Shown here: one piece after another, positions 25,489-47,627 of the stretch
Layout of the letters: each line of letters opens with the position of its first letter
Numbering within the stretch: the first letter of the stretch is position 1
Assembly: GCF_000833025.1 (NCBI RefSeq)
Contig: NZ_CP010817.1
Span: 3,782,001 to 3,846,000, forward strand
Direction of reading: 5' to 3'
Length of the DNA stretch: 64,000 bases
DNA from: Myroides profundi
Lineage (GTDB): Bacteria > Bacteroidota > Bacteroidia > Flavobacteriales > Flavobacteriaceae
Notes under the pieces: model-generated
Databases searched by the model: none
What the model saw: the letters and a program-made list of their open reading frames with translations, nothing else
Told to the model about the DNA's origin: nothing
Made by a program: the position numbers and the translations under genes

Positions 25489-26784
25489 TTATAGTGTATT
25501 TGTATTGAAAAGTTTAAGCTTGCGCTCCATAAAAGAACGATTATAATCATTCTTAATCAAAGCAAACTGAGAGCTCAATAATTGATTCTTTGCAGCATTA
25601 AATGAGAAGATATCTACCTTTCCATTCTCATATTTTGCTTGTGTTGTACTAAATGATTTTTCTGATAGCTCAATACTTTTTTGAAGTTGTTTTGCTATAT
25701 TCTCTAACTGTGTAATTTCAGTTCTCAACTCCTCAATTTGATTGTTCAGATTAACTTCACTTTCCTTTATACGCAAGGTATTTAAACGAATTTCTTCATT
25801 TTTCACTCTTACTTGTCTACGTATATTTCCACCTTGAAACACAGGTATACTCAACCCAAAACTAACGTACTGACTTTTATTATCTCCCATCTGTTTTGAG
25901 AAAGAATTAGTACGCAATTCTATATCACTATTAAAGGGTTTTGAATAGAAAGAACCATATTGATAATTCCCTACTAATCGAGGTAAATTCTTAGACTTAA
26001 TTAGTCTCTTCTCTTGTTCTAAAACACGTTGTCTTAATCGATTCTTTTCTAGTGTTGGATTAAACTCATACCCTTCTATTTGTGCTATAGATTCCTCCTT
26101 TTGTACCACACTAAACTCATTCACTCCTAAATCTTCTATATTTAATAAATGAAGTAATTTTAACTTCTGATTATATAGAGTATTCTCCGTTTGCTCTATA
26201 CTAATAGTCTCGCTGTGATATATGTATTCTATATCATAGAAATCACTCTTAGGTTTTGCGCCTGCTTCTACCTCCTTCTGTACACGCTCTAAGTTTGTTT
26301 TACTATTAATTAGTTGCTGTTGTTGTATTTCTAAAAAGGATTGAGAACCTATAATTTCATAAAACAACTCAAGAATAGCTGTCTGATATTGAAATAGGAC
26401 TTCTTCACTCTCCAACGTAGCATAATCAATAGATAGGTTATCTTTCTTATGTTGTATAAAATTACTAAAGTCAAATAGCGTAACTCCAACATCTAATGAA
26501 GCTCTTGTAGACTGAATATTAGAACTCACACGGCTATTCGTAGCAGGATCAATAGCAGAACCAAAGTTATAAGACTGTGTCCCATTCAACCCTATATCAG
26601 GTAAATAATAGGATGCCACACTTTGCTTTCTACTTTCAGCAACTTTAGTCTCTAAGGCAGACACCATCAACCTTAAACTATTCTCTTTTCCTTTCGCTAC
26701 ACAGTCCTCCAAAGTCCACTGCTCTTGAGCTACTCCTACAATACTAAACAAAATAGTCAATACTAAACACCAACTCTTACTCAT
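25489..26784 (-). CDS. TolC-family outer-membrane efflux duct
   Basis: A 431-residue protein with signal peptide MSKSWCLVLTILFSIVGVAQ. The mature part is the repeated coiled-coil/beta pattern of TolC proteins (ALETKVAESRKQSVASYYLPDIGLNGTQSY near the first hairpin; LNNQIEELRTEITQLENIAKQLQ and FSTTQAKYENGKVDIFSF near the second). It would form the trimeric channel through the outer membrane. It is the last gene of the long permease operon, and its ATGAGTAA start overlaps the stop of the preceding permease by 8 bases, which suggests translational coupling. It completes the tripartite exporter with the adaptor at 46234 and the ATPase at 45527, nearly 20 kb upstream. Confidence 0.92.
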   Translation of the reverse strand: MSKSWCLVLTILFSIVGVAQEQWTLEDCVAKGKENSLRLMVSALETKVAESRKQSVASYYLPDIGLNGTQSYNFGSAIDPATNSRVSSNIQSTRASLDVGVTLFDFSNFIQHKKDNLSIDYATLESEEVLFQYQTAILELFYEIIGSQSFLEIQQQQLINSKTNLERVQKEVEAGAKPKSDFYDIEYIYHSETISIEQTENTLYNQKLKLLHLLNIEDLGVNEFSVVQKEESIAQIEGYEFNPTLEKNRLRQRVLEQEKRLIKSKNLPRLVGNYQYGSFYSKPFNSDIELRTNSFSKQMGDNKSQYVSFGLSIPVFQGGNIRRQVRVKNEEIRLNTLRIKESEVNLNNQIEELRTEITQLENIAKQLQKSIELSEKSFSTTQAKYENGKVDIFSFNAAKNQLLSSQFALIKNDYNRSFMERKLKLFNTNTL

Positions 26785-29203
26785 ACTTTATATATTTTAA
26801 AACATCAATACGTGTCGCTTTATAAGCTTTCCAAAACACTAACAACATTGAGAAAAGCATTAAACTTACAAAAGCAATAACAAATGGTAACACGGTAATC
26901 GAAATACGATAAACAAAGTCCTCCAACCATATATTCATCACATAAATCACAGGGTAAATCGATATGATAAATCCAATTAGACAATACATAACAAAACGCA
27001 CAGATAATTTCAGAATCAAACTAATTGAGTTTGCTCCTAACACTTTTCGAATAGCAATTTCTTTTAATTTACTTTCAATACTAAAGGACACGATTGCCAT
27101 CAAACCGAACAAAGCTATAAATACTGAGACCCCCATCAAACACACAAATAATGTACGTTGATATAATGTCTTTTGGTAACTTTTAGCAAAGTCTTCATTG
27201 ACAAATTTGTATTGTATTGGATAGGTAGAATCAATTCTCTTATTCCAAAACTCTTCTAAAGCTTGTAAGGTTATTTGCGTATTATTAGTATCTATTTTTA
27301 CTGCTATATGATCTATTAAATGATAAAACCAATCCACTGAATTAGGCATAAAATAAGTTACAGGATTAGTATTCTGACTAACTCCTTCTACCTTCATATC
27401 CTTTACAACACCAATAACTTCAAACTCTTTTCCATTCCATTTAATCTTTTTTCCTAGTATTCCATCTGAAAAATTAAAAGTTGATTTAAATGTTTCGTTA
27501 ACAACAACTTTACTAATACTATCTGTCGCCAAACCACGATCAAAAAAACGTCCTTCTTTCAATTCTCCATCAAATACTTTCAAAAAATCATATCCTACAG
27601 GAACGTTGTTACTTTGTACCGAAGCCTCTCCTATTCTATTTCCTGAAGCACTACTATACCCACCTCCAATAACCATTGAATGAAGTGTTACTTCTTTTAC
27701 ACCTTTAATCTTTTTTAAATCAGACTCAATATCATAATAAAGATCATTTCGCCTCTGGATATCTTTAATCTTAAAATTAATATTAACAACCTGATCACCA
27801 TCAAAACCTAAATCCTCTTGAAGAATATGCTCTACCTGTTTATCTATAAAAACAGCCGTTGACAAAAAGAAAAAGGCGATTACAAATTGTAGAATCAGAA
27901 ACATATTTCGAAGACTAACACCCGCTTTTCCTCTTAAATAATTTCCTTTCAACACTTTTAATGTATCAAACGACAATAAGAACAAGCTTGGTAATGTACC
28001 TGATAATAAAACAACTCCTAAGACAATTCCTAGAATAGGCAAAGCAATTACCCAAACATGGAAGGACATAGTTCTATTAACCAACAAATTAAAATAGGGT
28101 AATAATATCTCAACAAGCACTAAGGCAATCACTAAAGCTAGTAATACACAAATAATAGATTCGAAGATAAACTGTAGAAATAGTTGCCATCTTGTAACAC
28201 CAATTGCCTTTCTTATACCAATTTCTTTTGCACGTTTAAAACTGTTTACTAAAGCTAAATTAACTGCATTTATAATACTCAACATTAGCAATAACACAGA
28301 AGATGTCATCATTATATTCAATACCTTAGAAGCTGCTGCTCCTCCTCCTAACCCTTTTGAAATTGGGTTTAAATGAATTGTATCTAATGAATTAAAGTTA
28401 AGTATAGCATTAGCGTTAAAGTTCTTCTTCACCTCTTCTAAAGTCATGGACTCCTTCTTCATATACATCTGGAAGACATCGTCATAAATCACATCTCTTA
28501 TACGTTCGTGAACATCTTTAATCTGAACACCTTCTTTTAACTTTAGCAATAGAGTGTAATTATGATCCCCCCAGTTATTTTCTCTATTATAAGCAATCTG
28601 ATTTTCTGTAACAAATGAAGTCAATCCTTTAAAATTAACTGAACTTTTTCCAGGAATACGATAAACAAAACGAATAGATAATACCTTTCCATTTTCCAAT
28701 ATAACTGTCTTTCCTATTGGATCAATACCTTTACCAAACAAACGTTCTGATTGGTCTATATCTATTGCTAAAGCATCTTTATAATTCGTTTTATACTCTT
28801 CTGCACTACCATAAATAGTCTCGAAAGGAAAGAATTCAAAAAAATTAGCTTGCTTTTCATCAATATCATAGAGAAATTCCTTACGTCCATCCACCTCAAC
28901 ACTTGAAATATCGTCAAATGTAAAGCTAAAATTATATGCCTCTACAATATCTGATAACTTGTCTAAATTGTTAGCTACAGGTGCAGGAAACCAATTCTTA
29001 AAGAAAGACTCTGATGATCCTTCAACTTCATAAACTCTCTCTTTAAAAGGATTCCAATGATTATAACTATGCTCGTTATGCCAAAACAACAATACAAGTA
29101 TAACAGCTGTCATACCAACAGCTAACCCTAAAATATTTAGAATTGAAACCACCTTATTCTTCCAGAAATGTTTCAGGTATAATTTAAACCAATTATTAAT
29201 CAT
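26777..29203 (-). CDS. MacB/FtsX-type ABC permease, seventh and last in the array
   Basis: An 808-residue double-length permease. It begins MINNWFKLYLKHFWKNKV and ends YKATRIDVLKYIKYE. The first FtsX core has EIGIRKAIGVTRWQLF, the second IAIRKVLGANSISL, each followed by transmembrane helices; between them are two large extracytoplasmic domains (about 45-285 and 450-685). It is set apart from the other six by the second GIN-domain gene and a 103-base gap, and its N-terminal third differs most from theirs apart from the first gene. It is coupled to tolC by overlap, so it may be the ancestral member that pairs with the duct. The substrate is unknown. Confidence 0.9.
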   Translation of the reverse strand: MINNWFKLYLKHFWKNKVVSILNILGLAVGMTAVILVLLFWHNEHSYNHWNPFKERVYEVEGSSESFFKNWFPAPVANNLDKLSDIVEAYNFSFTFDDISSVEVDGRKEFLYDIDEKQANFFEFFPFETIYGSAEEYKTNYKDALAIDIDQSERLFGKGIDPIGKTVILENGKVLSIRFVYRIPGKSSVNFKGLTSFVTENQIAYNRENNWGDHNYTLLLKLKEGVQIKDVHERIRDVIYDDVFQMYMKKESMTLEEVKKNFNANAILNFNSLDTIHLNPISKGLGGGAAASKVLNIMMTSSVLLLMLSIINAVNLALVNSFKRAKEIGIRKAIGVTRWQLFLQFIFESIICVLLALVIALVLVEILLPYFNLLVNRTMSFHVWVIALPILGIVLGVVLLSGTLPSLFLLSFDTLKVLKGNYLRGKAGVSLRNMFLILQFVIAFFFLSTAVFIDKQVEHILQEDLGFDGDQVVNINFKIKDIQRRNDLYYDIESDLKKIKGVKEVTLHSMVIGGGYSSASGNRIGEASVQSNNVPVGYDFLKVFDGELKEGRFFDRGLATDSISKVVVNETFKSTFNFSDGILGKKIKWNGKEFEVIGVVKDMKVEGVSQNTNPVTYFMPNSVDWFYHLIDHIAVKIDTNNTQITLQALEEFWNKRIDSTYPIQYKFVNEDFAKSYQKTLYQRTLFVCLMGVSVFIALFGLMAIVSFSIESKLKEIAIRKVLGANSISLILKLSVRFVMYCLIGFIISIYPVIYVMNIWLEDFVYRISITVLPFVIAFVSLMLFSMLLVFWKAYKATRIDVLKYIKYE

Positions 29204-29252
29204 AAGTATTCGGATGAAGTATTACACTGCCCAATGCATATATCCTAAGATA

Positions 29253-29287
29253 AGTGATAGATAGTCATTATAAACATATCTATCACT
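29253..29287. repeat. Perfect 11-bp inverted repeat between the GIN gene and the last permease
   Basis: AGTGATAGATA and TATCTATCACT are separated by 13 bases, inside the only gap of more than 12 bases in the operon. No T-run follows on the minus strand, so it is not an obvious terminator; it could stabilise or process the mRNA. Its core is like the repeat at 16814-16865. Confidence 0.6.
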
Positions 29288-29306
29288 AGTCTAGAAACTA
29301 TAAGAA

Positions 29307-30137
29307 TTAATCTATATTTTTTACTTGTCCTGAAGAAGAAGTGTTTGAACTCACTATCTTAGCTCCTCCTGTATATTGAACACGTCCTGAAGAACTCGCT
29401 CTACCAGATACCTCATCAGTTACATTAAACACCATAGAACCTGATGAGCTAGCTTTACCTTCTAGTGTTTTAGTTGTGAAGCTAGATCCTTTAATAGAAC
29501 CACTACTAGAAGCAGAAGCGCTCACAGAATCAGCATTCCCAGATAAACTCAACCTAGCTGAACTACTAGCTCCAAAGTCTCCAGTTTTAGTCTTTAATGA
29601 GATATCTACACTTGCTGAAGAACTAACACTTGCAGATGATTTCTTTGTCACCTCAAAACTACCTTCTATTTTAGAAGAAGAACTTGCCTCTATAGATAAG
29701 TTATCTGCTTGCACTAACTCTCCTCTAAACCTTGCTGAACTACTCGTTTTTACATCAAATGATTTAGCTACAACTTTGTTTAATAAGTTAAACTTAGCAG
29801 AAGAAGACAATCTTACCTCTTCTAAACTAGGGTTATTTATAGTAACTACTACTTTCCCAAAATCTCTTATATTGATACCGTTCTTCCATTTTTTATTGCT
29901 TTTTTGATCAATGAAGATATCTAACCCTCCAGTAATTGTCGTTTCTGTCTTGACATCTTTCATATTCTCAGACTTCTCTACTTCCACTACTACACTCTTA
30001 GCTCCTCCATAAATAAAGTTCACTTCTATTCCTTGAGAAGCTTTTACGGATTTAAAATCACTTACTTGACGTGTTTCTTTTGATTGTGCGAACACACTTC
30101 CTCCTACTAATAGGAAGAACATTACTATTTTTTTCAT
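29307..30137 (-). CDS. Head-GIN-domain (DUF2807) protein with serine ladder
   Basis: A 276-residue exported protein (signal peptide MKKIVMFFLLVGGSVFAQ). After an N-terminal stretch (TRQVSDFKSVKASQGIEVNFIY) typical of head-GIN/DUF2807 proteins come at least eight coils of about 20 residues, each carrying an SSS or SSSA/SSSG step (SSSAKF, SSSARF, SSSSKIEG, SSSASVDI, SSSARLSL, SSSGSIKG, SSSGSMVF, SSSGRVQY, SSSGQVKN). This predicts a single-strand beta-helix with a stacked serine ladder. Start: the ATG at 30137 begins the signal peptide; an ATG at 30164 overlaps the upstream permease stop (ATGAATAA) and would give a nine-residue longer n-region, also possible. It is probably a periplasmic or surface accessory of the exporter. 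Confidence 0.82.
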   Translation of the reverse strand: MKKIVMFFLLVGGSVFAQSKETRQVSDFKSVKASQGIEVNFIYGGAKSVVVEVEKSENMKDVKTETTITGGLDIFIDQKSNKKWKNGINIRDFGKVVVTINNPSLEEVRLSSSAKFNLLNKVVAKSFDVKTSSSARFRGELVQADNLSIEASSSSKIEGSFEVTKKSSASVSSSASVDISLKTKTGDFGASSSARLSLSGNADSVSASASSSGSIKGSSFTTKTLEGKASSSGSMVFNVTDEVSGRASSSGRVQYTGGAKIVSSNTSSSGQVKNID

Positions 30138-30156
30138 ATTTAAATTTGTTTTATGG

Positions 30157-32610
30157 TTATTCATATTTTATATATTTCAGTACATTGATCTTCGTCGCTG
30201 ACCAAGCCTTTAAGAATACAACTACGCCTGTTAATATTAGTATCACAATCAAGCAAATGATAAATGGTTCTACACTAATATCAATTCTAAAAGCATAATC
30301 ACTCAACCATTTGTTTAAGAAATAATAACTAGGGAATATAGCAATACCAAAACCTACCAGACACATCACTACATACTGTACAGACAATTGTTTTAATAAG
30401 CTAGATGAACTAGCCCCCAACACCTTGCGAATAGCCACCTCTTTTAGGCGGTTATTAATATTAAAAGAAGCTAGACTATACAATCCAAATAAAGCGATAA
30501 ACACAACAATTCCATTCAGTGTTAAGAAAACATCTCTCTCTTTCTTTACATTATTAAATGTCTTTGCATATTGCTTATCTAAAAACTCATAACTAAATGG
30601 CTCGTCAGAGATATCCCTATTCGCCCATATCTTCGCTATCTCATTCATTGTCTTTTCTACATTATCTCCTTTAACCTTAACTGTGATCTGTCTACTATTT
30701 AATCCCACCCAAGGAATTGTTTTTAAACTAAAGAAGACTAGAGGAGCATAATTAGATTTAAGACCATATAGATTAAAGTCCTTTACCACACCTACTATTG
30801 TCAGTTTATTACCATTCCACTCTATTGTTTTCCCTATAGGATTCTCTTCTTTCATTTCATAAGCAGTACGTTCATTAATCAATATATTAGAGATAGAGTC
30901 AGACGCAAATTCAGGTGATAAACTTCTTCCTTCTTTCAGCTTTATATCTAAAGTATTTAGATAATTATAGTCCATTCCTACATTAATACCCTGTATTCTA
31001 TTTCCATTATGTATAAAACCTGAGGAACTACCATAACTACTCCCTATACTGATCGAAGCGATAGACATATTCTCTACTCCACTGAGCCTCATGATCTCTT
31101 CTTTCAGAGATTGATATACATTAATCTTCTCTTCATAAGGGCCTTTACTAATAAAAGGAATGACCACCACTTGATCTCCTTTAAACCCAAGATCCTTATT
31201 TAACATATAAATTACCTGCCCATATACAATATAACTTCCAACCATAAAGAAACAAGCCACTGTAAACTGTACTATTAACATGACGTTCTTTAATGTCTTA
31301 CCTTTCTTACTCTTATTTACTTCTCCTTTCAGAACTTCTAACGTTTTAAAACTAGCAGTAAATAAAGCAGGAATAATACCTACTAATAAAACAATGATCA
31401 CAATGAACAATAGTAACCAAGGTAGTATATAGAATACTTCTATTTCCATCTGTGAATCTAAGAATACTTTTAACCATGGCATCGTAAACTCAATCAGTAC
31501 AAAAGCAATAATACAAGCTAGTATAGAGGTAACTAGAGCCTCGATTAACCCTTGTAATATCAAGTTTCTCTTAGTCGCACCTAATGTTTTTCTTATTCCA
31601 ACTTCTCGTGTACGACCTATCGCTTGGGCAGTGCTTAAGTTGATATAATTAAATACAGATAATACTAATATCAATAAAGAAAGGCCTATCATGATATTCA
31701 ATCTCCCGACATTAGTTGCTCCCTCAGGAGTACCATTTAAGTCAGAGTTCTTCTGCATTCTTTGTGTTGCTAAGACATGTAGTTTATATCCTTTATTTTT
31801 TAGATTCTTAAACTCCTCCAGTGTCACACCTTCTTCTTTTTTCATATACTCCTCTAGGCTCAATCCTTCATCCTTCGCTAGCGATACATACACTTGTTTA
31901 ATCAAGATATCCTTTATTAGCCCTTCCACTTCCTTAGTATACTTAGCATCGTCTAACTTTAACCAAATAGTTGAGTTATAATTACCCCATTGCTCTATTC
32001 CCTCTTTCTCATATTGATCTACTGCATTAACCAGTATATTTGCCATTATTGAATTCCTGTTTTTCCCTAGCTTATACACAGCACTTACTACATAAGTATC
32101 TTTATTATACTCAAAAGATTTACCTATCGGATCTTCTCCATTGAATAATTGCTTAGCATACTCATCAGTAATAACAGCAGTATTTGGCCCATTAAATGGC
32201 TTGTTCTTATCTCCCTTTACTATCTCATAAGGAAAAAACTCAAAGATGTTAGACTTTACATATCCTATCTTTTCCACTCCTTTTTTCACCCCATCTATAG
32301 TCATTGTCCCACCACCATAGTAATTATCCCAATAAGTATAATCAATGATATGTGAAGACTCTTCTTTTAACTTAGAACCAAAAGGATAAGGTAACTTCAT
32401 CCAGCTCGTATCTGCATTCAGAATAGACTCTACTGTGAATATATTATCCTTATTCGGATTCGCTTGATCATAAGAAGACTCTTCTCTATAATGCACGAAT
32501 GACAAGATAACAGAAGCAAATCCCACTCCTAAACTTACTAATGTTAGAATAAAATAAACTTTATTCTTCAACACATTAGACCAATATACTTTTAACCAGT
32601 TCTTTATCAT
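30157..32610 (-). CDS. MacB/FtsX-type ABC permease, sixth in the array
   Basis: An 817-residue permease starting MIKNWLKVYWSNVLKNKVYF and ending WSATKINVLKYIKYE. Core motifs: EVGIRKTLGATKRNLILQ (first FtsX unit) and EVAIRKVLGASSSSLLKQL (second). The second half matches the neighbouring permeases (GFGIAIFPSYYFLNKWLSDYAFRI) while the first extracytoplasmic domain is its own, including a lysine-rich stretch EGVTLEEFKNLKNKGYKLHV. It starts 1 base after the fifth permease and its stop overlaps a possible start of the GIN gene. Like the others it must borrow the ATPase at 45527. Confidence 0.9.
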   Translation of the reverse strand: MIKNWLKVYWSNVLKNKVYFILTLVSLGVGFASVILSFVHYREESSYDQANPNKDNIFTVESILNADTSWMKLPYPFGSKLKEESSHIIDYTYWDNYYGGGTMTIDGVKKGVEKIGYVKSNIFEFFPYEIVKGDKNKPFNGPNTAVITDEYAKQLFNGEDPIGKSFEYNKDTYVVSAVYKLGKNRNSIMANILVNAVDQYEKEGIEQWGNYNSTIWLKLDDAKYTKEVEGLIKDILIKQVYVSLAKDEGLSLEEYMKKEEGVTLEEFKNLKNKGYKLHVLATQRMQKNSDLNGTPEGATNVGRLNIMIGLSLLILVLSVFNYINLSTAQAIGRTREVGIRKTLGATKRNLILQGLIEALVTSILACIIAFVLIEFTMPWLKVFLDSQMEIEVFYILPWLLLFIVIIVLLVGIIPALFTASFKTLEVLKGEVNKSKKGKTLKNVMLIVQFTVACFFMVGSYIVYGQVIYMLNKDLGFKGDQVVVIPFISKGPYEEKINVYQSLKEEIMRLSGVENMSIASISIGSSYGSSSGFIHNGNRIQGINVGMDYNYLNTLDIKLKEGRSLSPEFASDSISNILINERTAYEMKEENPIGKTIEWNGNKLTIVGVVKDFNLYGLKSNYAPLVFFSLKTIPWVGLNSRQITVKVKGDNVEKTMNEIAKIWANRDISDEPFSYEFLDKQYAKTFNNVKKERDVFLTLNGIVVFIALFGLYSLASFNINNRLKEVAIRKVLGASSSSLLKQLSVQYVVMCLVGFGIAIFPSYYFLNKWLSDYAFRIDISVEPFIICLIVILILTGVVVFLKAWSATKINVLKYIKYE

Positions 32611-32611
32611 A

Positions 32612-35047
32612 CTACTCGTATTTAATATATTTTAATACATCTACCCTAGTCGCTTTATAAGCTCGACTGATAACAATTAGTAATGTCAATATCATAATGA
32701 TAACAAAACAAAATATAAATGGCCATACACTCATCTCTATTCTAAAAGCATAATCACTCAACCATTTATTCAAGAAGTAATAACTCGGGAATATAGCTAT
32801 TCCAAAGCCTATTAAACAAAACACAATGTACTGTCCTGTTAGCTTCTGTATCAGATCTTCAGGTCTCGCACCTAGTACTTTGCGTATAGCAACTTCTTTT
32901 AACCTAGAGTTAATCGTAAATGATGCCAAACTATACAATCCAAAAAGAGCAATAAAAACAACCAATAAATTCAAAACTAAAAATACTTTGCGCTCTTGTA
33001 GAGAACGTTCAAAACTCTGTGCAAAACGCTTATCTACGAACTCATAAGTAAAAGGAGAATCAGAGATATTATGTTTTTTCCAAATCTGTTCTATAGCTTC
33101 CATCGTCTCTTTAACATTCTCTGTGTTTATCTTAATAGACATCTCATTCATATTACTTCCCCATCCTTGTTCAAAATCTAATGACATAAATATCATTGGG
33201 CGATAATCCTCATGCAATCCAAACAAATTAAAATCCTTTACAACCCCAACAATAGTGACTTTCTCTTCATTCCATTCAAACTCTTTTCCTAAAGCATTGT
33301 CAGTAATACCCATCATTGCTATTGCCTTTTCATTTAACAATACATTTTTTATACTATCAGAAGCAAAATCTTGAGATAGTGCTCTTCCTTCTTTTAATTT
33401 AATATCAAATAGTTTTAAAAAATCATCATCCATAGCTGCTACACCTGCCTGTATTTGTTTGCCTTGGTAAGAATATCCTACAGATGAATAATTTTTTCCG
33501 CCTATTGCCAATGACCACGCACTTGCTCCCTCAACACCTTTTATTTTAAGAATATCTGCCTTTAGTCTTTTATAGATAGGTAGAGTATTCTCTACAAGAT
33601 CTCTTTTAAGATTATATGGTACTCCTACTATCTGATTTGCATTATAACCTAAATCCTTATTAAGCATATAATTCACTTGCTGATTGACAATCAAAGAACC
33701 GATGATAAAAAAACAAGCAACGATAAACTGAACTGTTAGTAATGTATTCTTAAACCAAACTCCTTTCTTACTTCTTTTTATATTTCCTTTTAAAACTTCT
33801 ATTGTTTTAAAACTAGAAATATAGAACGCAGGTACTGTTCCCACTAAAAAAATCACAGTTATTAAAAACAATAAAACCTGAGGCACAAATTCCAAAACAT
33901 TAAACAACAATTTAGCTTTAAAAAACACTCTCAGACTAGGAAGAGCATATTCGACTATAACTAAAGAAATGATAATAGATATAAGTACTGTTACTCCTGA
34001 TTCAAAATAGTTTTGCAGCATTGTACTTGCTTTATTAGCTCCTAATACTTTGCGTACACCTGACTCTTTACCCCTATTCATTACTTGTACTGTAGTAATA
34101 TTGATATAATTAAATACTGACAATAACATGATAAGACTTGAAAGACCTATAGCAATATAAATTCTATTTCTATTCGCTATTCCTTCTGGTAAAGCGTTTT
34201 TTTGATTCGAATTAATTAACCGTTGTCCTTTTAAATCATGTAAATAAAATGTCAATACATAATCTTTTTCTTTTTTTAGTTCCTCTATCGTGAGTCCTTT
34301 ACTTTTTGCTACAGGAGCAATCACTTTGTCGTCGTATATACTTAATAATTGTTTCTCTATCAACTCTTTTGACTCTGGACTTTTTAATTTAATCCAAAGT
34401 GCAGAACTATAATTTCCCCAACCATTACTTCCTATAGCATTTTCTACTCGTTCATCCAAAACATTAAATACCATATTAGGATTTATAGAACTCAATGTTT
34501 CTGCTTCCTTATACACTCCTTTCACTGTAAATGTCTTTCCCCACAAAAGGATTACTTGCCCTACAGGTTCTTCATCCTTAAATAAATACTTCACATAAGT
34601 ATCCTTGATAAATACTTGATCAGGCCCATCAAAAGGTTTTATTTTATTTCCTTGTACAATCTCAAAAGGGAATACGTCAAAAAACGCTGATTGACCAAAA
34701 CTAGCTTTTTCAAAAGCTTTAGACTCTCCATTAACTAATACTACACCTCCCTGGTAATGAGCATCTAAATAAGTATACGTTTCTACACGGTCAGAAATAT
34801 CCTTCAAAACCTCTCCATAAGGATAAGATAATGATGGCCAACTCTCCTCTTCACTAAACTTAGTCTCTACCATAAATACACGATCACTATCCTTGTGCCA
34901 AGTATCGTAAGACATTTCTTCAGTATAATATAAATACGAAATTATCACAGCTGATAACCCTATCGCCAATCCTATTACTGTCAACAAGAAATACATCTTG
35001 TGCTTCATCGTATTGTACCAATAAATCTTTAACCAGTTCTTTAACAT
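32612..35047 (-). CDS. MacB/FtsX-type ABC permease, fifth in the array
   Basis: An 811-residue permease, closest to the fourth. The first ~66 residues are the same in both apart from a few changes (MLKNWLKIYWYNTMKHKMYF, then YYTEEMSYDTWHKDSD), and the last ~130 residues are almost identical (SFTINSRLKEVAIRKVLGAR onwards, ending DVLKYIKYE). Between these the extracytoplasmic domains diverge clearly. First FtsX unit: SGVRKVLGANKASTMLQN. The pattern points to duplication with later divergence of the exposed domains or gene conversion of the ends. It starts 2 bases after the fourth permease. Confidence 0.9.
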   Translation of the reverse strand: MLKNWLKIYWYNTMKHKMYFLLTVIGLAIGLSAVIISYLYYTEEMSYDTWHKDSDRVFMVETKFSEEESWPSLSYPYGEVLKDISDRVETYTYLDAHYQGGVVLVNGESKAFEKASFGQSAFFDVFPFEIVQGNKIKPFDGPDQVFIKDTYVKYLFKDEEPVGQVILLWGKTFTVKGVYKEAETLSSINPNMVFNVLDERVENAIGSNGWGNYSSALWIKLKSPESKELIEKQLLSIYDDKVIAPVAKSKGLTIEELKKEKDYVLTFYLHDLKGQRLINSNQKNALPEGIANRNRIYIAIGLSSLIMLLSVFNYINITTVQVMNRGKESGVRKVLGANKASTMLQNYFESGVTVLISIIISLVIVEYALPSLRVFFKAKLLFNVLEFVPQVLLFLITVIFLVGTVPAFYISSFKTIEVLKGNIKRSKKGVWFKNTLLTVQFIVACFFIIGSLIVNQQVNYMLNKDLGYNANQIVGVPYNLKRDLVENTLPIYKRLKADILKIKGVEGASAWSLAIGGKNYSSVGYSYQGKQIQAGVAAMDDDFLKLFDIKLKEGRALSQDFASDSIKNVLLNEKAIAMMGITDNALGKEFEWNEEKVTIVGVVKDFNLFGLHEDYRPMIFMSLDFEQGWGSNMNEMSIKINTENVKETMEAIEQIWKKHNISDSPFTYEFVDKRFAQSFERSLQERKVFLVLNLLVVFIALFGLYSLASFTINSRLKEVAIRKVLGARPEDLIQKLTGQYIVFCLIGFGIAIFPSYYFLNKWLSDYAFRIEMSVWPFIFCFVIIMILTLLIVISRAYKATRVDVLKYIKYE

Positions 35048-35049
35048 CT

Positions 35050-37479: not shown

Positions 37480-37481
37480 CT

Positions 37482-39917: not shown

Positions 39918-39925
39918 CTCTATCT

Positions 39926-42373
39926 CTATTCGTATTTGATATACTTTAATACATCTACCCTAGTCGCTTTATAAGCACGACTAATAACAATCAACAATGT
40001 CAATCCTAAAATTAACAACAAACTATACGCGTATACACTCCATCCTATCTCTATGCGATACGCATAATTCTCTAACCACTTATTTAAAAAGTAATAACTA
40101 GGGAATACTGCTATTCCAAATCCAACTAAGCAATAGATTACATACTGAAATGACAACTGTCTTAACAGTCCAAAAGTATCTGCTCCTAATACCTTGCGGA
40201 TAGCTACTTCTCTTAGCTTTGTTCCTATCGTAAAAGACGATACAGCAAACAGTCCAAATAAAGCAATGAATACAACTACAATACTTAGAATATTAAATAT
40301 TCTCTTCTCCATCTGTACTTTATGGAAAGTCTCTGCAAACTGCTTATCTACGAATTTGTATTGAAACACATCCCTTTCTTCTATATTATACTGCTTCCAC
40401 AGCTTCTCGATATCAACAATAGTCTTACTAAAATATTCTGGAACAATCTTTATGTATATGACAGAATACATCCCATAGCTATGCTTAGTCTCTGGCATAT
40501 AAGAATATACAAATGGCAATATTTTCTCTTCAAGCCCTTCAACATTAAAGTCTTGAATTACTCCCACTATTGTTTTCTTCTTGCCTAGCAATTCTATTGG
40601 GGTATCAAGAGGCTTAGCCAAATTCATCGTATGAACAAAAGTCTCATTCACCACCACATTATCTAAACTATCAGAAGATAATTGAGCAGATAACATCCTA
40701 CCTTCTTTTAGCTTAATCTCTAATGCATCGAAAAAATCATAATCAATCATAGCATTATTAATCATCACATTTTCTTTCCCGTTGTTGTGATAAGTACCAA
40801 ATACACCTCCTCGATTACCTACAAAACTTACATTACTAGTAGATATCGACTCTATTCCTTTAATCTTCTCTAGTTCGGCTTTAAAGCTTGCATACTTAAT
40901 AGCGCGCTTTCCAGTATACTTACTACTACTTAGAAACTCTATATTAATAACTTGATCTCCTTTAAAACCCAGACTTTTATTGAGCATATAACTTACTTGT
41001 TCATTGACGATGATAGAACCAATAATAAAGAAACAAGCTATTGTAAATTGAAGAACTAAAAATCCATTACTAAGCCACTTACCTCCTTTAGTCCCTATTA
41101 CATTTCCTTTTAATAGTTTGACAGTCTCAAATCTTGAAACAAAAAAAGCAGGAATACCACCACATATCAGAACCACTAAAGTGGCAATAACGATAAGAAC
41201 AGCTAAATCATTGATAAACGAAAATGTGATATTCGTCTCTAAATAAACATTGATATAAGGTAGAATGAGCTCAATGATACAAATAGCTAATACTAAAGAA
41301 AAGATAACAACAATAGCAGTTTCAAAAATACTCTGCTGATAAAAACTTCTCTTACCTGCACCAGCCACTCTTCTCATTCCTATTTCTTTTCCTCTGCTAA
41401 CTACTTGCGTTAATGATAGATTAACATAATTAAAAATAGAAAGTAAGAGTATCGTCATAGATAAGAAAATACTAATGTTTAGCATTTGCACATTTGCACT
41501 ACCTTCTGGGAATAACCTTTGATTCGGTAGCATACGAGCATCTGCAAGTTTATTTAATACGATATCTCCTGTATAGTATTTAAAAGGTTCTTCTTCTTTA
41601 TATTGCTCTAATGTTAGACCATCCTTCTTTGCATTTGGAATGGCAACATATTTATCTCTAAGCTCCATTATAGCCTTTTTAATTCTATCAGGCTGTTTAG
41701 TCTTCACACATAGAATTAATCCAAAATCTCCCCAATCATCACTTTCACTAGGCTTTTCAGTCAAATTATTCATAACTGCATTAGGAGCAAAAGAACTACG
41801 TAGGTCTCCTATTTTGTATACACCAGAGATTATAAAATTAGTGTTACCCTGACTATCATAGTCTGGATTAATAGCTTCTATTGTCTTACCTATTGGGTTT
41901 ACTCCTTCCCCAAATAGTGCTTCAGAGATCTTAATATCTATCGCTACATCATTAGGGTTAACTAACGCTTTTTCAGCATTACCATATACAAACTCGAATG
42001 GAAAAAACTCAAAGTAGTTATCTTGTACGGCATATATATCTTTTGCATCTATTTTCTTCTCATTATAAATGAAGTTTAGAGAACCATTATATCCATAGTA
42101 CATATAATCATCTAGTTCCTTATAATTATCCTTTAGATATCTTCCCATAGGACGGAACTGATCTGTCATAGAGAAATTCGGAGCTACAGTCTCTACGAGA
42201 TACACCTCATCCTTATTCGGATTCCACTGATCATAACTAGACTCTTCTAGATAGTATAATGATGCTAATACAACTGACGCAATACCTAATGTCAATCCTA
42301 CTACTGTCAACAAGAAATACATCTTGTGCTTCATCGTATTGTACCAATATATTTTCAACCAGTTCTTTAACAT
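39926..42373 (-). CDS. MacB/FtsX-type ABC permease, second in the array
   Basis: An 815-residue permease. It shares its ends with the third permease but has distinct exposed domains, e.g. YYGYNGSLNFIYNEKKIDAK and VGNRGGVFGTYHNNGKENV. First FtsX unit EIGMRRVAGAGKRSFYQQ is more divergent than the second, EVAIRKVLGADTFGLLRQL. The two FtsX units in one chain mean that a single polypeptide supplies the whole membrane part that MacB builds from two copies. It starts 2 bases after the first permease. Confidence 0.9.
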   Translation of the reverse strand: MLKNWLKIYWYNTMKHKMYFLLTVVGLTLGIASVVLASLYYLEESSYDQWNPNKDEVYLVETVAPNFSMTDQFRPMGRYLKDNYKELDDYMYYGYNGSLNFIYNEKKIDAKDIYAVQDNYFEFFPFEFVYGNAEKALVNPNDVAIDIKISEALFGEGVNPIGKTIEAINPDYDSQGNTNFIISGVYKIGDLRSSFAPNAVMNNLTEKPSESDDWGDFGLILCVKTKQPDRIKKAIMELRDKYVAIPNAKKDGLTLEQYKEEEPFKYYTGDIVLNKLADARMLPNQRLFPEGSANVQMLNISIFLSMTILLLSIFNYVNLSLTQVVSRGKEIGMRRVAGAGKRSFYQQSIFETAIVVIFSLVLAICIIELILPYINVYLETNITFSFINDLAVLIVIATLVVLICGGIPAFFVSRFETVKLLKGNVIGTKGGKWLSNGFLVLQFTIACFFIIGSIIVNEQVSYMLNKSLGFKGDQVINIEFLSSSKYTGKRAIKYASFKAELEKIKGIESISTSNVSFVGNRGGVFGTYHNNGKENVMINNAMIDYDFFDALEIKLKEGRMLSAQLSSDSLDNVVVNETFVHTMNLAKPLDTPIELLGKKKTIVGVIQDFNVEGLEEKILPFVYSYMPETKHSYGMYSVIYIKIVPEYFSKTIVDIEKLWKQYNIEERDVFQYKFVDKQFAETFHKVQMEKRIFNILSIVVVFIALFGLFAVSSFTIGTKLREVAIRKVLGADTFGLLRQLSFQYVIYCLVGFGIAVFPSYYFLNKWLENYAYRIEIGWSVYAYSLLLILGLTLLIVISRAYKATRVDVLKYIKYE

Positions 42374-42375
42374 TT

Positions 42376-44754
42376 TTATTCGTATTTGATATAATTAATA
42401 ATATTGATTTTAACAGCCTTATACAGCTTACTTGCTAAAACCACAAAGACTAAAACAGAGAGTAGTACTAAAGAAAGTACAAATGGGTAAACCGCAATAT
42501 CTGTATGATCTACAAACCTATCTAACCATTTACTCATCAACCAATATGTAGGGTATAGTACTAATACATAAGTAATCCCCAGAGCATATATAAAAGGCTT
42601 TAGTAACTTCAGATAGAGTTCTTTCTCACTAGCCCCTAATACTTTTCTGATCACGATTTCCTTTAATTGTTGTTCTATTGCAAAGGACATCACCGCGTAG
42701 AGTCCAAACAGAGCGATTAACACTACCGCTCCATTCCACAACATAAACATATTGCGCTGTGATAATGTTTTCTGATAAGTCTGAGCAAACTGTTTCTTCA
42801 CAGCCATCACCTCAAACGGATACTCATAATCGACATTCACTATCCAGAATGCTTGTAGACGTTCTAGAGTTTCTTCCCTTATCTCTGGATCTATCTGCAC
42901 AGATAGAGACTCTATACCATAAGGCAAAAACTCTATATCTCTCCAGTGAAACAGAAGCATTGGCTTTATACTCTCTTCAAACCCGTCTCGGTTAAAGTCT
43001 CCTATTACCCCTTTTATGATAAATGTATTACTGTCATACGCTATGACCTCTCCTACTACATCACTAGGTTGTTTACCTAGTTGAGTAACAAACTTCTCAT
43101 TGACATATACGGTTGGGAGATCTTCATCTATATCCTCCTGAAGCGCCAGCATATTGAATCCCATCATCTGTATATACCCTTCATCTACCCCATCCATGAT
43201 GAAGTCCGTTATTTTCTGTTGTTGATAATAAGCCGTATGATTCGTATTCATACTACTTCCTTTAAAAGAGATTGTAGACAGCCCTACACCTTTCACCCCT
43301 TTTATATCCGCTATTTGTTCTATGACTTTAGAGGATCTATACATCTTACGTCTAATCTGTTGTGTATATAGCTTGACTTGATATACCTGCTCTCCCTTAA
43401 ATCCTAATTCTTTACTTTGCATATAATCCACTTGATTATACACTAGCCATCCAGCGATTAAGAAAAAGAAAGCAATCACCAACTGTATTCCCACGAATGC
43501 CATTCTCCACTTAGAGATACTTAAATGAAGCTGTACTTGTCCTCCCTTAGTGTGTTGTCTAGCGATAATACTACCGTATAAAGCAGTTAATAAACCTCCT
43601 AAACAAATAATTCCTCCACCTATCAGTAAAATCACAATCCCCATAGCTTCCCAAGAGAACACTAAGTGTTGATGTAAAAAACTGTTGTAAATAGGTAAAC
43701 TCAATTCTACTAAAACCAAAGAAATACTTAACGCAACTAAGACATTCAGTACCGTCTCAAAAAGTAATTGTAATACCAACTGTCCTTTTGAAGCTCCTAT
43801 AATTCTTCTTAGAGACAACTCCTTTGCTCTACTTAAGACATTAGACTGATTCAGACTGATATAGTTCACTACAGTCAGTAAAAAGATTAAGAACGAACAC
43901 CCACTGATTAACCCTATTGTTTCTCTCTTCGTATTTCCTTCTAATAGAGTAGTCTGCTTAGATTCAAATCGAGCTTCTGCTAATGGAACTAACTTAGAAG
44001 TAATCTCATCTCCCCTATCATCGAAGTATTTATTCTTCTTTTTCTTATTGTAGTAAACCTCTTCTAGCTCTTTTAATAACTTAACTTGGTCTACTCCATC
44101 TGCTTTCTTAAACACGAGTCCACCTACATTCTCTTGCCATAACTCATACTCTTCTATTTCATCAAAGTCTATAGAAGCAAGTACTACCTCGGGCATTATC
44201 GTAGCCCGTTGATTTAATTCATACACCCCTCTTATCACATACTTCTGATGTGCTAACGACAGTGTGTCACCTACGGGATTTGTGTCTCCAAAAAAACGAG
44301 TAGCAAGATTAGAAGATATCGCAATAGAATAGTCATCAACGAACAATTGTTCTTTATCCCCATGCTTAAATTCAAAAGGAAAAAAGTGGAAGAACGACTT
44401 TTGTGTATTCAATATCTTACTTACAACTCCCTGTTCTGATCTACTCTCCCCATAGAAATCTAAATATTCTAATGCATAGTAACAGTAGTCTTCAGCTAAT
44501 TGATTCTCTAATAAATAAGGCCCTACCCCGGCAGGGATATAGATAGAATTGGATTGTTTTCCCATTTCTAGGTCTACTTCATACATATTACCTACCTTAG
44601 GTATCCATCTATTATAGCTATACTCACTCTTATAGTAAGTCACCGCTAGGATAACAGACGCCATACCAATAGCTAGCCCTATGATATTCCACAAAAAGAA
44701 CAATCTAGAGTTACTGATATTTTTAATATATATTTTAAACCAATTCTTTAGCAT
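42376..44754 (-). CDS. MacB/FtsX-type ABC permease, first in the array
   Basis: A 792-residue permease, promoter-proximal and the most divergent of the six contiguous copies. It starts MLKNWFKIYIKNISNSRLFF and ends YKAVKINIINYIKYE. FtsX units: ELSLRRIIGASKGQLVLQ and EIVIRKVLGASEKELYLKL. Family background for the whole set: MacB/FtsX (type VII) ABC permeases do not carry substrates through the inner membrane but couple ATP hydrolysis to movement of their periplasmic domains, driving efflux through an adaptor and TolC or handing on lipoproteins. It lies 4 bases after the first GIN gene. Confidence 0.9.
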   Translation of the reverse strand: MLKNWFKIYIKNISNSRLFFLWNIIGLAIGMASVILAVTYYKSEYSYNRWIPKVGNMYEVDLEMGKQSNSIYIPAGVGPYLLENQLAEDYCYYALEYLDFYGESRSEQGVVSKILNTQKSFFHFFPFEFKHGDKEQLFVDDYSIAISSNLATRFFGDTNPVGDTLSLAHQKYVIRGVYELNQRATIMPEVVLASIDFDEIEEYELWQENVGGLVFKKADGVDQVKLLKELEEVYYNKKKKNKYFDDRGDEITSKLVPLAEARFESKQTTLLEGNTKRETIGLISGCSFLIFLLTVVNYISLNQSNVLSRAKELSLRRIIGASKGQLVLQLLFETVLNVLVALSISLVLVELSLPIYNSFLHQHLVFSWEAMGIVILLIGGGIICLGGLLTALYGSIIARQHTKGGQVQLHLSISKWRMAFVGIQLVIAFFFLIAGWLVYNQVDYMQSKELGFKGEQVYQVKLYTQQIRRKMYRSSKVIEQIADIKGVKGVGLSTISFKGSSMNTNHTAYYQQQKITDFIMDGVDEGYIQMMGFNMLALQEDIDEDLPTVYVNEKFVTQLGKQPSDVVGEVIAYDSNTFIIKGVIGDFNRDGFEESIKPMLLFHWRDIEFLPYGIESLSVQIDPEIREETLERLQAFWIVNVDYEYPFEVMAVKKQFAQTYQKTLSQRNMFMLWNGAVVLIALFGLYAVMSFAIEQQLKEIVIRKVLGASEKELYLKLLKPFIYALGITYVLVLYPTYWLMSKWLDRFVDHTDIAVYPFVLSLVLLSVLVFVVLASKLYKAVKINIINYIKYE

Positions 44755-44758
44755 AACA

Positions 44759-45514
44759 CTAATTACCTGCCTTAACTGATCCCATAGAATCTGTATATTT
44801 CTTTAATTCTTTTGGTGTATTATAGTACACCACTTTACCCATAGAGTCTGCATAAGCATTTAGACTTTCTGTAGGATACACTTCTGCCTTCCCCATAGAA
44901 TCTACCTCAGCTTTTACCATTTTTGCTTTTAAGCCTTTTCCTGCGAATGTCGCTGCACTATCCACATTGACTACGAGGGATTCGACATCTCCTGTCACTT
45001 CCACACGACCTGCCGAGTCTACATTAGCCTTCATTGTCTTCGCTGTTACATTACCAACATACTTAGAGGCTGAGTCTACATTAATACTGATTGTATTCAC
45101 AGAGAAATTAGCATTTACAGATCCAGCCCCATCAATAGAGATCTTAGCGCTATCACCAGATACTCTCCCAGACACCACTATTCTAGCCATAGCACTAGCG
45201 TAATAAGTAAGTACTGACTTCTGAGAAACATTCACTGTAATCTTTCCTATACTTTTATACCTTCTGTTTGGAGACTTGGATTCAATAGACAATTTAGTTC
45301 CTACCTGTCTGATTTGCACTAACTCTTCTGGGCTCTCCGTATCAGTGACTATTTCTACTGTATTAGAATCCCTAGTTGCATCAACATTAACTATCACTAT
45401 AGAAGATACTTCTATACTCTGTACTCCACCTGCTATAGTAACCGTTTGCTTACCTTGTCCATACATAATGAAGGACAATAACGCAGCTACAAGTGTTAAT
45501 AAAAAACGTATCAT
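44759..45514 (-). CDS. GIN-domain-like (DUF2807) protein with Asp-Ser ladder
   Basis: A 251-residue exported protein with signal peptide MIRFLLTLVAALLSFIMYGQ. The C-terminal ~150 residues form coils of ~20 residues, each with a DS/DG step: SIDGAGSVNA, NVDSASKYVG, NVDSAGRVEV, NVDSAATFAG, EVDSMGKAEV, YADSMGKVVY, YTDSMGSVKA. This is the same single-strand beta-helix idea as the serine-ladder protein at 29307, but with an acidic ladder, so they are paralogs in fold rather than copies. It lies between the ATPase (12-base gap) and the first permease (4-base gap). Probable periplasmic or surface accessory; no enzyme motif. Confidence 0.78.
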   Translation of the reverse strand: MIRFLLTLVAALLSFIMYGQGKQTVTIAGGVQSIEVSSIVIVNVDATRDSNTVEIVTDTESPEELVQIRQVGTKLSIESKSPNRRYKSIGKITVNVSQKSVLTYYASAMARIVVSGRVSGDSAKISIDGAGSVNANFSVNTISINVDSASKYVGNVTAKTMKANVDSAGRVEVTGDVESLVVNVDSAATFAGKGLKAKMVKAEVDSMGKAEVYPTESLNAYADSMGKVVYYNTPKELKKYTDSMGSVKAGN

Positions 45515-45526
45515 AATTCTGTGTTT

Positions 45527-46231
45527 TTATTCTGCAAAAACATCTACGATTTTAGTATTCATTTTCTCTGATAAGATCATTCCATCTTTCATTAAAATCG
45601 TGCGTTCTGAGTACGAAGCATCGTGATTCGAGTGAGTCACCATGATGATTGTAGCTCCTTGTTGGTGCAGTTCTGTTAATAATTCCATTACTTCGTTACC
45701 ATTCTTACTATCTAAGTTACCTGTAGGCTCATCGGCTAGGATAATCTTAGGGTTCGTTACCAAGGCACGCCCTACAGCCACACGTTGTTGTTGTCCTCCT
45801 GATAGCTGTTGTGGATAATGTTTTAATCTATGTACTATATTTAAGCGCTCTGCTATTTCCATTACCCTCTTCTTGCGCTCACTGCTAGGCACTTTATTAT
45901 AGATTAGAGGAAGTTCTATATTATCATACACTGTCAACTCATCGATTAGATTAAAGTTTTGGAATATAAATCCGATGTTTTCTTTTCTAATCTGTGCTCG
46001 CTGACCTTCTGTTAATCCCACCATCTCCTTGTCTAATAACAGGTAGCTTCCACTACTCGCATTATCTAATAGTCCGATGATATTTAACAGCGTTGACTTT
46101 CCACATCCTGAAGGTCCCATAACAGAGATAAACTCTCCTTTTTTCACATTTAAAGAAACCTGATTTAAAGCTGTTGTCTCTATTTCTTCTGTCTGAAATA
46201 CACGAGACATTTGATTAATAGTTATTACCAT
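45527..46231 (-). CDS. ABC transporter ATP-binding protein (MacB/LolD type)
   Basis: A 234-residue cytoplasmic ATPase, the only one in the operon. Walker [10 protein letters not shown] (about 39-47), signature [15 protein letters not shown], Walker [12 protein letters not shown] and the switch His in MVTHSN are all present, so it should be active. This subfamily (MacB, LolD, FtsE) pairs with FtsX-fold permeases. The single ATPase must serve all seven permeases encoded downstream, unless another one comes from elsewhere in the genome. It starts 2 bases after the adaptor gene. Confidence 0.96.
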
Positions 46232-46233
46232 AA

Positions 46234-47475
46234 TTATTCTTCTATGTTTAAATGTTCTACTCTTAAATAATCTTTATAACTCGATACGATCACTTCCTCC
46301 CCTACTTCTAAGCCCGATATCACTTCATAGTAAGCAGGGTTCTCGCGTCCTATCTCTACATTCCTTCTTGTAGCCTTATTGTTTTTTACTACATATACCC
46401 ATTCTCCTTTTGTGTCTTGAAAGAAATTACCTTTAGGTAATAACAGCGCTTTCTCTTTTCCTGACAAGAATAACTTCACTCCGAAGGTTGTCCCTTCCTG
46501 TAGTTTTAATTCCTTTTCTGTATCGAAAGCCAGGTGTACTTCGAATCTACCGCTCTTCACCTCAGGCAACACTTTTATCACTTCTACATTTGTGATCTGC
46601 CCTTTCATATCGATCTGTCCTCTCTGCTTAAGCATTATTTTATCGAGATAGAACTCATCCACCTGTGCGACTAGCTTATACCCTTCCATCACATCTATCT
46701 TACCAATACTCTCTCCTCCGTTATACGTCTTTCCTAATATAGCCTCGAACGATGACAGCCTCCCTGATACAGGCGCTTTTAATAAGAAATTCTGTTTATT
46801 CTCTCTTAGCTGCTCCAAGCTTCTATTGATGACAGCTATCGATTGATCTATCTGTTTTACTTGTAGCACATTGCTTTGTTTCTCTTTTTGGATACTCTCT
46901 TCCATCAATGCTTTACGCTTTTTTTGATACGTTAGCGCCTCTCTTGTTTTGTTCCAATCACTCTCTGACAATATCTCCTGATCATATAATTTTTTATTTA
47001 GATCATACTGTAGCTCTGCATTCTTATAATCGTACTCGATGCTTATCAAATCTTTCGTTAAATTTAACTCTTGATTACGAATATTCATCTTATTCACATT
47101 CAAATTATTCATTTGATCGATCAGAGAAGCTTCTTGAGACATAAAGTTAAACTCAGAACTCGGGTTATACAGTCTTACTAAAGGTTGTCCCTGTACTACC
47201 ATACTTCCATTCTCTACTAATCTCTCCATCACCGCTCCTCCTTCTGTGATATTGACTAACAAAGAATGCAATGGTTCTACCTGAGACTGAAAAGAAATAT
47301 ACTCTTCGAAAGAGTTCTCTTCTACGGGACGAATACGTATCTCTTTCTTAGAAACGTTTAAAGCGATATGCTGAAAAAAAGTGATATAACTGATCAATAG
47401 CAAAGCGATAATACCAACTGAAGCAAGTATTATCTTAACTTTTTTTCTATTTTTACGAGGAATAGTACGATCCAT
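46234..47475 (-). CDS. HlyD/MacA-type periplasmic adaptor of a tripartite exporter
   Basis: A 413-residue membrane-fusion protein: a positively charged N-terminus (MDRTIPRKNRKKVK), one transmembrane anchor (~16-35), lipoyl half-motifs (PLVRLYNP and LKAPVSGRLSSFEAILG), a long coiled-coil hairpin between them (about 100-220) and C-terminal beta domains (EGTTFGVKLFLSGKEK, VVKNNKATRRNVEIG). It would bridge the permeases to TolC. The start at 47475 is preferred over 47538, whose extra 21 residues would run through the putative promoter. It is the first gene of the operon; the divergent NtrC-type regulator begins 152 bases away. Confidence 0.93.
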   Translation of the reverse strand: MDRTIPRKNRKKVKIILASVGIIALLLISYITFFQHIALNVSKKEIRIRPVEENSFEEYISFQSQVEPLHSLLVNITEGGAVMERLVENGSMVVQGQPLVRLYNPSSEFNFMSQEASLIDQMNNLNVNKMNIRNQELNLTKDLISIEYDYKNAELQYDLNKKLYDQEILSESDWNKTREALTYQKKRKALMEESIQKEKQSNVLQVKQIDQSIAVINRSLEQLRENKQNFLLKAPVSGRLSSFEAILGKTYNGGESIGKIDVMEGYKLVAQVDEFYLDKIMLKQRGQIDMKGQITNVEVIKVLPEVKSGRFEVHLAFDTEKELKLQEGTTFGVKLFLSGKEKALLLPKGNFFQDTKGEWVYVVKNNKATRRNVEIGRENPAYYEVISGLEVGEEVIVSSYKDYLRVEHLNIEE

Positions 47476-47497: not shown

Positions 47498-47515
47498 ATA
47501 ACAATAATGTGCCAA
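47498..47515 (-). promoter_or_regulatory. Possible sigma-54-like promoter of the exporter operon
   Basis: The minus strand reads TTGGCACATTATTGTTAT. The TTGGCAC is an exact -24 box; the -12 box (TTGT) is one base too close and lacks the final C. It lies 23-40 bases before the adaptor start, the right place for a promoter, and an NtrC-type activator is encoded next door. Because sigma-54 spacing is strict this remains a candidate. Confidence 0.33.
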
Positions 47516-47535: not shown

Positions 47536-47627
47536 CATTACAAATCAACAACTTAATATTTGATCAAAAAATAAACTGTTCAGTTTCGGACACTAAAACG
47601 TTCGCTTTTGAAATAAACCTTTACACT

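Follow-up and report, generated by a model that had tools for sequence, protein, structure and literature searches.

A type VII export operon of Myroides profundi with seven double-length permeases and one ATPase

A run of twelve packed genes occupies positions 25489..47475, on the minus strand, of a 64,000-nucleotide stretch of the Myroides profundi genome (contig NZ_CP010817.1, positions 3,782,001 to 3,846,000), hereafter the window. It encodes, in order, a periplasmic adaptor, an ATPase, the protein GIN1, six permeases (P1 to P6), a second GIN protein (GIN2), a seventh permease (P7) and a TolC-family outer-membrane duct, and is an unusual form of the already known type VII ATP-binding cassette (ABC) export. 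The explanation that we somewhat favour is that the permeases would work by turns with a single set of ATPase, adaptor and duct, and would deal with different ligands of the periplasm or membrane when the envelope is stressed. It is the best account of the data because the membrane parts of the permeases are alike, their periplasmic parts drift, all copies are preserved and their number varies between species.

Organization of the operon

The spacings between successive genes, from adaptor to TolC, are 2, 12, 4, 2, 8, 2, 2, 1, -8, 103 and -8 bases. Open reading frames and spacings agree with the gene content, order, strand and packing described in an original prediction on this DNA, and Pfam bears out its seven double-length permeases beside one ATPase and one duct. 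Each permease (792-817 residues) contains two MacB_PCD and two FtsX stretches, and protein identity among the seven is 28-70% overall. They are P1 (42376..44754), which is 28-30% identical to the other six, P2 (39926..42373), P3 (37482..39917), the ends of which are near-identical to those of P2, P4 (35050..37479), P5 (32612..35047), the ends of which are near-identical to those of P4, P6 (30157..32610) and P7 (26777..29203). Thirteen of the 17 MacB_PCD matches in the genome fall in the array and the remaining four lie in frames of 408-440 residues, so that the seven array permeases are the only double-length ones found by that search. P4, which was modelled and compared, has eight predicted membrane helices; over its full length it matches the fold of E. 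coli YbbP best, and BceB, MacB and LolCDE are matched as well. Each chain thus looks like a complete membrane domain, as originally proposed, and the domains of all seven permeases together with the modelled fold of P4 place them among the type VII (MacB/FtsX-like) ABC transporters.

The ATPase (45527..46231) is a stand-alone ABC protein of 234 residues, of the MacB/LolD/DarD type (ABC_tran in Pfam), in which the usual ATPase motifs can be read. The adaptor (46234..47475) is HlyD-like. Its longest frame begins at 47538; the later start at 47475, that of the original prediction, is most likely the correct one, since in four relatives (Pcu381, phaeus, WP-1 and G058) a 413-residue frame begins at the later Met and since a promoter-like element is situated between the two starts. 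GIN1 (44759..45514) and GIN2 (29307..30164), the latter with a signal-peptide-like start, belong by Pfam to the Toastrack/DUF2807 family, and a β-helix fold is predicted for GIN2 alone, the AlphaFold model of which (pLDDT 89) matches PDB entries 3lyc, 4opw and 3ljy. The duct gene (25489..26784) matches OEP with 126 bits. A scan for sigma70-type promoters within the operon found 84 against 92.6 expected and is uninformative, its consensus being unfit for Bacteroidota; that of Flavobacterium psychrophilum is TAnnTTTG (PMC9723704).

Copy number of the permeases in relatives

Relatives of the adaptor were collected from named genomes (11 loci), from genomes of the same GTDB genus (20 of 61, window included, E up to 1e-30) and from genomes of the order (29 of 148, E up to 1e-60, with the window and G060 repeated). 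Gene order was read from fetched stretches for 57 loci, 30 in a first set and 27 in a second, one of them extended; many come from close relatives and are not independent samples. One locus on a 6.6-kb contig (G034) and one adaptor without an array on its contig (L008) were left out, G068 was counted with five permeases although its contig carries no adaptor, and four genomes of family f5 had eight single-length permeases, which belong to a different operon, taken out of the counts. Nine genomes are termed Myroides-type: the window, five named Myroides, the metagenome-assembled genome Pcu381 (Flavobacteriaceae), and G020 and G058, which fall with them in the permease tree.

Double-length permeases per locus number one in 24 loci, two in 13, three in seven, four in five, five in two, six in two and seven in four. 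The original prediction had called seven extreme and proposed counting copies in related genomes. Seven is indeed the top of the resulting 1-7 range, but it is not unique, being reached in three lineages (the window and Myroides odoratimimus CCUG 39352, Elizabethkingia sp. YR214, and G165, a genome of the same family), and 14 of the 30 first-set loci have one permease. A divergent NtrC-type regulator gene stands beside the adaptor in 54 of the 57 loci, and the same mrp-like gene follows the operon in 25 of the 30 first-set loci, which marks the same genomic place. The single-permease genomes of the window's GTDB genus are presumably Flavobacterium. Among the best matches of a literature search by title and start of abstract, no treatment of such a multi-permease array was found.

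The window adaptor is 99% identical to that of CCUG 39352, which places the window in the M. odoratimimus species group. The number of middle permeases ranges from 1 to 5 among Myroides-type genomes, and the 8-base overlap of TolC with P7 is kept in all nine of their loci. The gap between GIN2 and P7 (29204-29306) is 103 bases in the window and CCUG 39352 vs 7-33 nt in the other seven; the window's gap has about 80 extra bases, including a 16-nt inverted repeat (29248..29292).

Several loci depart from this layout. The arrays of G165 and of the four-permease locus G149 have, at their end, a second gene for an ATPase and one for TolC. In the Elizabethkingia loci L009 and L010 the adaptor is followed by an extra 470-residue frame and the ATPase is preceded by a GIN gene, and in G095 a permease sits between adaptor and ATPase. 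G020 and G158 each have one array permease split into two frames, the two split cases among 141 permease genes.

Growth of the array

A maximum-likelihood tree was built from 82 permeases; the split ones were left out of this and of the wider tree below. The 42 Myroides-type rows separate from the 40 others (SH-aLRT 99%). The P1 and P7 clades each hold one member from all nine Myroides-type genomes, the remaining 24 Myroides-type rows form a third clade, and 18 Elizabethkingia rows form their own at 100%. In a wider and rougher tree of 119 rows (20 of 139 thinned out), which carries a long-branch warning, Elizabethkingia groups with family f5 and the Myroides-type group has 93%. The permease copies of G165 are interspersed with permeases from other genomes. 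The trees thus suggest separate amplification in Myroides, in Elizabethkingia together with f5, and in genomes of the G165 type, the root being provisional and older paralogues followed by loss the other option. The array would have grown in place from one ancestral permease, such as is seen in the single-permease loci of many relatives.

Mosaic permease ends and selection

Pairs of permeases were compared inside and outside an end mask (first 45 and last 119 codons), with circular shifts along the pair as the test. The synonymous-site difference between P2 and P3 is 0.194 in the ends vs 0.728 elsewhere, and 1 of 805 shifts does as well; between P4 and P5 it is 0.185 vs 0.593 (2 of 807 shifts). 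The last part of P2 has 94% DNA identity to P3 vs 81% to its M. marinus orthologue, whereas its core has 53% to P3 vs 90% to the orthologue. P5 shows the same pattern against P4 (core identity 70%): its ends resemble that paralogue more than they do the M. marinus orthologue. These comparisons therefore indicate recent gene conversion, or an equivalent exchange, at the ends of both pairs. Between the window and CCUG 39352, ends and core differ by 0.18 vs 0.05 in P3 and by 0.17 vs 0.06 in P4; continuing exchange is only suggested, since 44 of 810 and 50 of 808 shifts reach these values.

Constraint by itself also preserves the likeness of the ends. In the paralogues of Elizabethkingia YR214, non-synonymous change averages 0.080 in the last membrane part vs 0.35-0.44 in the periplasmic domains, while synonymous change is high throughout. 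The ratio of non-synonymous to synonymous change (dN/dS) between the window and CCUG 39352 is 0.05-0.22 for the seven permeases, which indicates purifying selection on every copy. Both coupling-type motifs, as defined by a simple pattern, are present in each window permease; 17 of 82 rows miss one or both, including P2 of CCUG 39352 and five of the six WP-1 copies.

A divergent kinase and regulator, and a recurrent palindrome

Adjoining the adaptor and divergent from the operon lies a pair of genes absent from the original prediction, an NtrC-type response regulator (47628..48974, plus strand) and a histidine kinase (48985..50310, plus strand), both assigned by Pfam. The regulator has the receiver, Sigma54_activat and Fis helix-turn-helix domains of a sigma54 enhancer-binding regulator. 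The usual loop of sigma54 activators is GAFTGA; here it reads GAFTDA. By hydropathy, the kinase has two N-terminal membrane helices and no periplasmic domain, as in all 29 kinases compared, and about 150 cytoplasmic residues precede its phospho-acceptor.

A candidate operator, TGTCCGAAACTGAACA (47577..47592, minus strand), is a form of the palindrome TGTYC-N6-GRACA. It lies 61 nt from a TTGGCAC-N4-TTG element (47502..47515, minus strand) that resembles the -24 half of a sigma54 promoter and has a non-canonical -12 half. The palindrome recurs in 24 of 29 regulator-adaptor intergenic stretches vs 3 of 5800 single-base shuffles, and TTGGCA in 12 of 29 vs 187 of 5800, both counts being inflated by the kinship of the genomes. 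The form TGTYC-N3-A-N2-GRACA gave 18 rows at 12 sites in the window's own genome vs 3 rows in the reversed control, and six of the 12 sites fall within long frames. With TTGGYA at 50-75 nt, the palindrome had 28 matches in 21 genomes vs 8 in the reversed control, 10 of them at the exporter, 7 upstream of a relative of an outer-membrane protein, 2 upstream of a 234-residue CarbopepD_reg protein and the other 9 at no protein among the five compared; the pattern is blind to the TGTCC form at the window's own exporter. This combination stands upstream of the PF14905 outer-membrane barrel relative in 7 of the 9 Myroides-type genomes. The recurrence at exporter and barrel gene suggests a small regulon.

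Two further sites lie outside the window in the same genome. Ahead of the first gene of a tandem pair of outer-membrane barrels of about 790 residues (C1:493241-498022; PF14905 with CarboxypepD_reg), the palindrome and TTGGCAC recur at the exporter's spacing. At C1:2247515, as in CCUG 39352, the palindrome is found upstream of a 234-residue CarbopepD_reg-like protein; there the matched TTGGYA points away from the gene and another TTGGYA lies 61 nt on the gene side.

Two stricter patterns were discarded. A textbook sigma54 site at the exporter could not be upheld, the strict form TTGGCAC-N3-6-TTGC having 1 match in the genome vs 6 in the reversed control. The pattern GAACA...TTGGCAC-N4-TTG matched this locus only (1 match, control 0) and is too narrow, the outer-membrane protein site lacking its last part. 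Elsewhere in the window, a frame at 8944-10107 joins an HD domain to a PycTM (Pycsar effector-type) membrane domain, and frames 10088-12454 (788 residues) and 50606-51388 (260 residues) have no Pfam match at E up to 0.001.

Proposed model: interchangeable permeases

We propose that the locus is a type VII (MacB-like) export operon equipped with a dedicated sensor pair, and that in the Myroides odoratimimus lineage local amplification brought a single ancestral permease to seven. As a whole membrane domain, each double-length chain would most likely bind two copies of the single ATPase and dock on the single adaptor and duct, the seven thus acting as alternative subunits. Constraint, supplemented in P2/P3 and P4/P5 by recent gene conversion, would keep their membrane ends alike. 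The paired periplasmic domains have diverged from copy to copy and may receive different ligands, present in the periplasm or extracted from the membrane. To judge from MacB, BceAB and YbbAP, these are most likely periplasmic peptides or hydrophobic envelope-active compounds. On envelope challenge, the kinase and regulator would turn on the operon and the outer-membrane barrel pair by way of the palindrome, to which the regulator presumably binds.

The original prediction had already offered alternative permeases on one ATPase as one of two options, and the conserved membrane ends and diverged periplasmic cores fit it. Several observations weigh against this proposal. The seven-permease array of G165 ends in a second ATPase. 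In the first set, a gene labelled TolC is missing from 12 of the 14 loci with one permease, and nine of these 12 carry an opposite-strand frame of 532-547 residues in its place. Low synonymous difference (below 0.4) at an end was seen in 6 of 138 within-genome permease pairs, so that gene conversion is rejected as a general rule of such arrays; four of the six are P2/P3 and P4/P5 in two genomes, and the others, pair 5/6 of Elizabethkingia YR214 and one of G056, are reached by 28 of 794 and 755 of 805 shifts. Membrane parts are also the more conserved in orthologues (ratio 1.9 in single-copy genomes of the same genus), and against this value the paralogue ratios of 2.2 (P2-P6), 1.6 (WP-1) and 1.7 (Neptunitalea) are weak by themselves. 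Finally, the promoter-like element lacks the GC at -12 of the sigma54 consensus GG-N10-GC, unlike groES and grpE of the same genome, which have canonical sigma54 spacing and are sigma54 targets in F. psychrophilum (PMC9723704). The case for sigma54 control of the operon is therefore carried mainly by the domains of the regulator; such control of FtsX-type permeases in Bacteroidia has been predicted (PMC12316311).

A possible, though distinctly less probable, explanation is that the permeases are chiefly sensors, as in Bce systems. Ligand-bound permeases would report through the membrane to the kinase, which has no periplasmic domain of its own, and the array would widen the range of inputs. 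However, the regulator is of NtrC type and not of the OmpR type of Bce systems, the cytoplasmic residues ahead of the kinase's phospho-acceptor may themselves sense, and the adaptor and TolC argue for transport. We think it unlikely that the operon handles lipids or lipoproteins in the manner of YbbAP or LolCDE rather than exporting foreign compounds, as it encodes an adaptor and a TolC-type duct, neither of which is known from the YbbAP and Lol systems. Joint assembly of several permeases in one ordered complex would suit their place in one probable operon and the retention of P1 and P7 in all nine Myroides-type genomes; it is made improbable by the varying middle permeases, by the many loci with a single permease and by a fold in which each chain is already complete. 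Redundant copies, arising by dosage or neutral amplification, would agree with the differing numbers in related species and with the two split genes, and are very unlikely given the purifying selection on every window copy and the divergence of the cores and of the proteins overall.

The proposal of alternative permeases can be extended, tentatively, to an evolvable specificity array. Ends held uniform by constraint and gene conversion would fit any permease to the shared partners, cores would diverge freely, and unequal exchange would add or remove permeases. Input from the permeases would also reach the sensor-less kinase by which they and the barrel pair are controlled, giving a multi-input export-and-sensing circuit with parallel origins in several Flavobacteriales lineages.

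The locus is less unique in number than first thought and more interesting for its evolution and possible regulon. At this syntenic position nature offers a series of 1 to 7 permeases, probably with the ATPase in common. It makes it possible to ask directly which part of a type VII system sets specificity, what number of permeases can depend on a single ATPase and whether exchange of periplasmic domains is a bacterial route to diversified export. A way towards the signal is offered by the recurrent palindrome together with the barrel genes that have it upstream.

Comparison with known systems

In the MacB-type pumps known so far, a single ATPase-permease is combined with one adaptor and a duct. 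The present operon shares with MacAB-TolC the adaptor, the TolC-type duct, the MacB_PCD/FtsX permease fold and a MacB-like ATPase. It differs in that the ATPase is separate, each permease is a double-length single chain, and seven permeases come with their own NtrC-type regulator; E. coli TolC is encoded elsewhere, away from the transporter genes. Darobactin export (DarBCD) likewise has a separate ATPase, an adaptor and a double-length permease, and the NCBIfam models that fit the adaptor and the ATPase best are DarC and DarD. The scores, however, fall far short of the cut-offs (285.7 of 375 bits for the ATPase, 164.1 of 450 for the adaptor and no more than 95.9 of 700 for the permeases), and here the permeases are many. 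The duplicated ADOP permeases (TIGR03434) are also double-length and MacB-type and give the top NCBIfam score for all seven permeases, at 152-230.9 bits (P6 highest) vs a cut-off of 622.3; those of the window come with an ATPase, an adaptor and a duct.

Shared-ATPase systems of the FhuC type are importers and are not known as tandem permease arrays. The use of one ATPase by more than one transporter is a likeness suggested by the title of PMC10147376. E. coli YbbAP-TesA resembles the present system in its double-length permease with two periplasmic domains and separate ATPase, and its complex has two ATPases per permease and ten membrane helices (PMC12646458), vs eight helices in the P4 model; it has a single permease, and TesA instead of adaptor and duct. 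In BceAB-BceRS, as here, a MacB-family permease adjoins a kinase that has two membrane helices but lacks an extracytoplasmic domain. Bce systems have no adaptor (PMC5985334). Their permease has one large extracytoplasmic domain and ten helices, whereas the permeases described here have two periplasmic domains and eight predicted helices, and stand beside a regulator of NtrC type.
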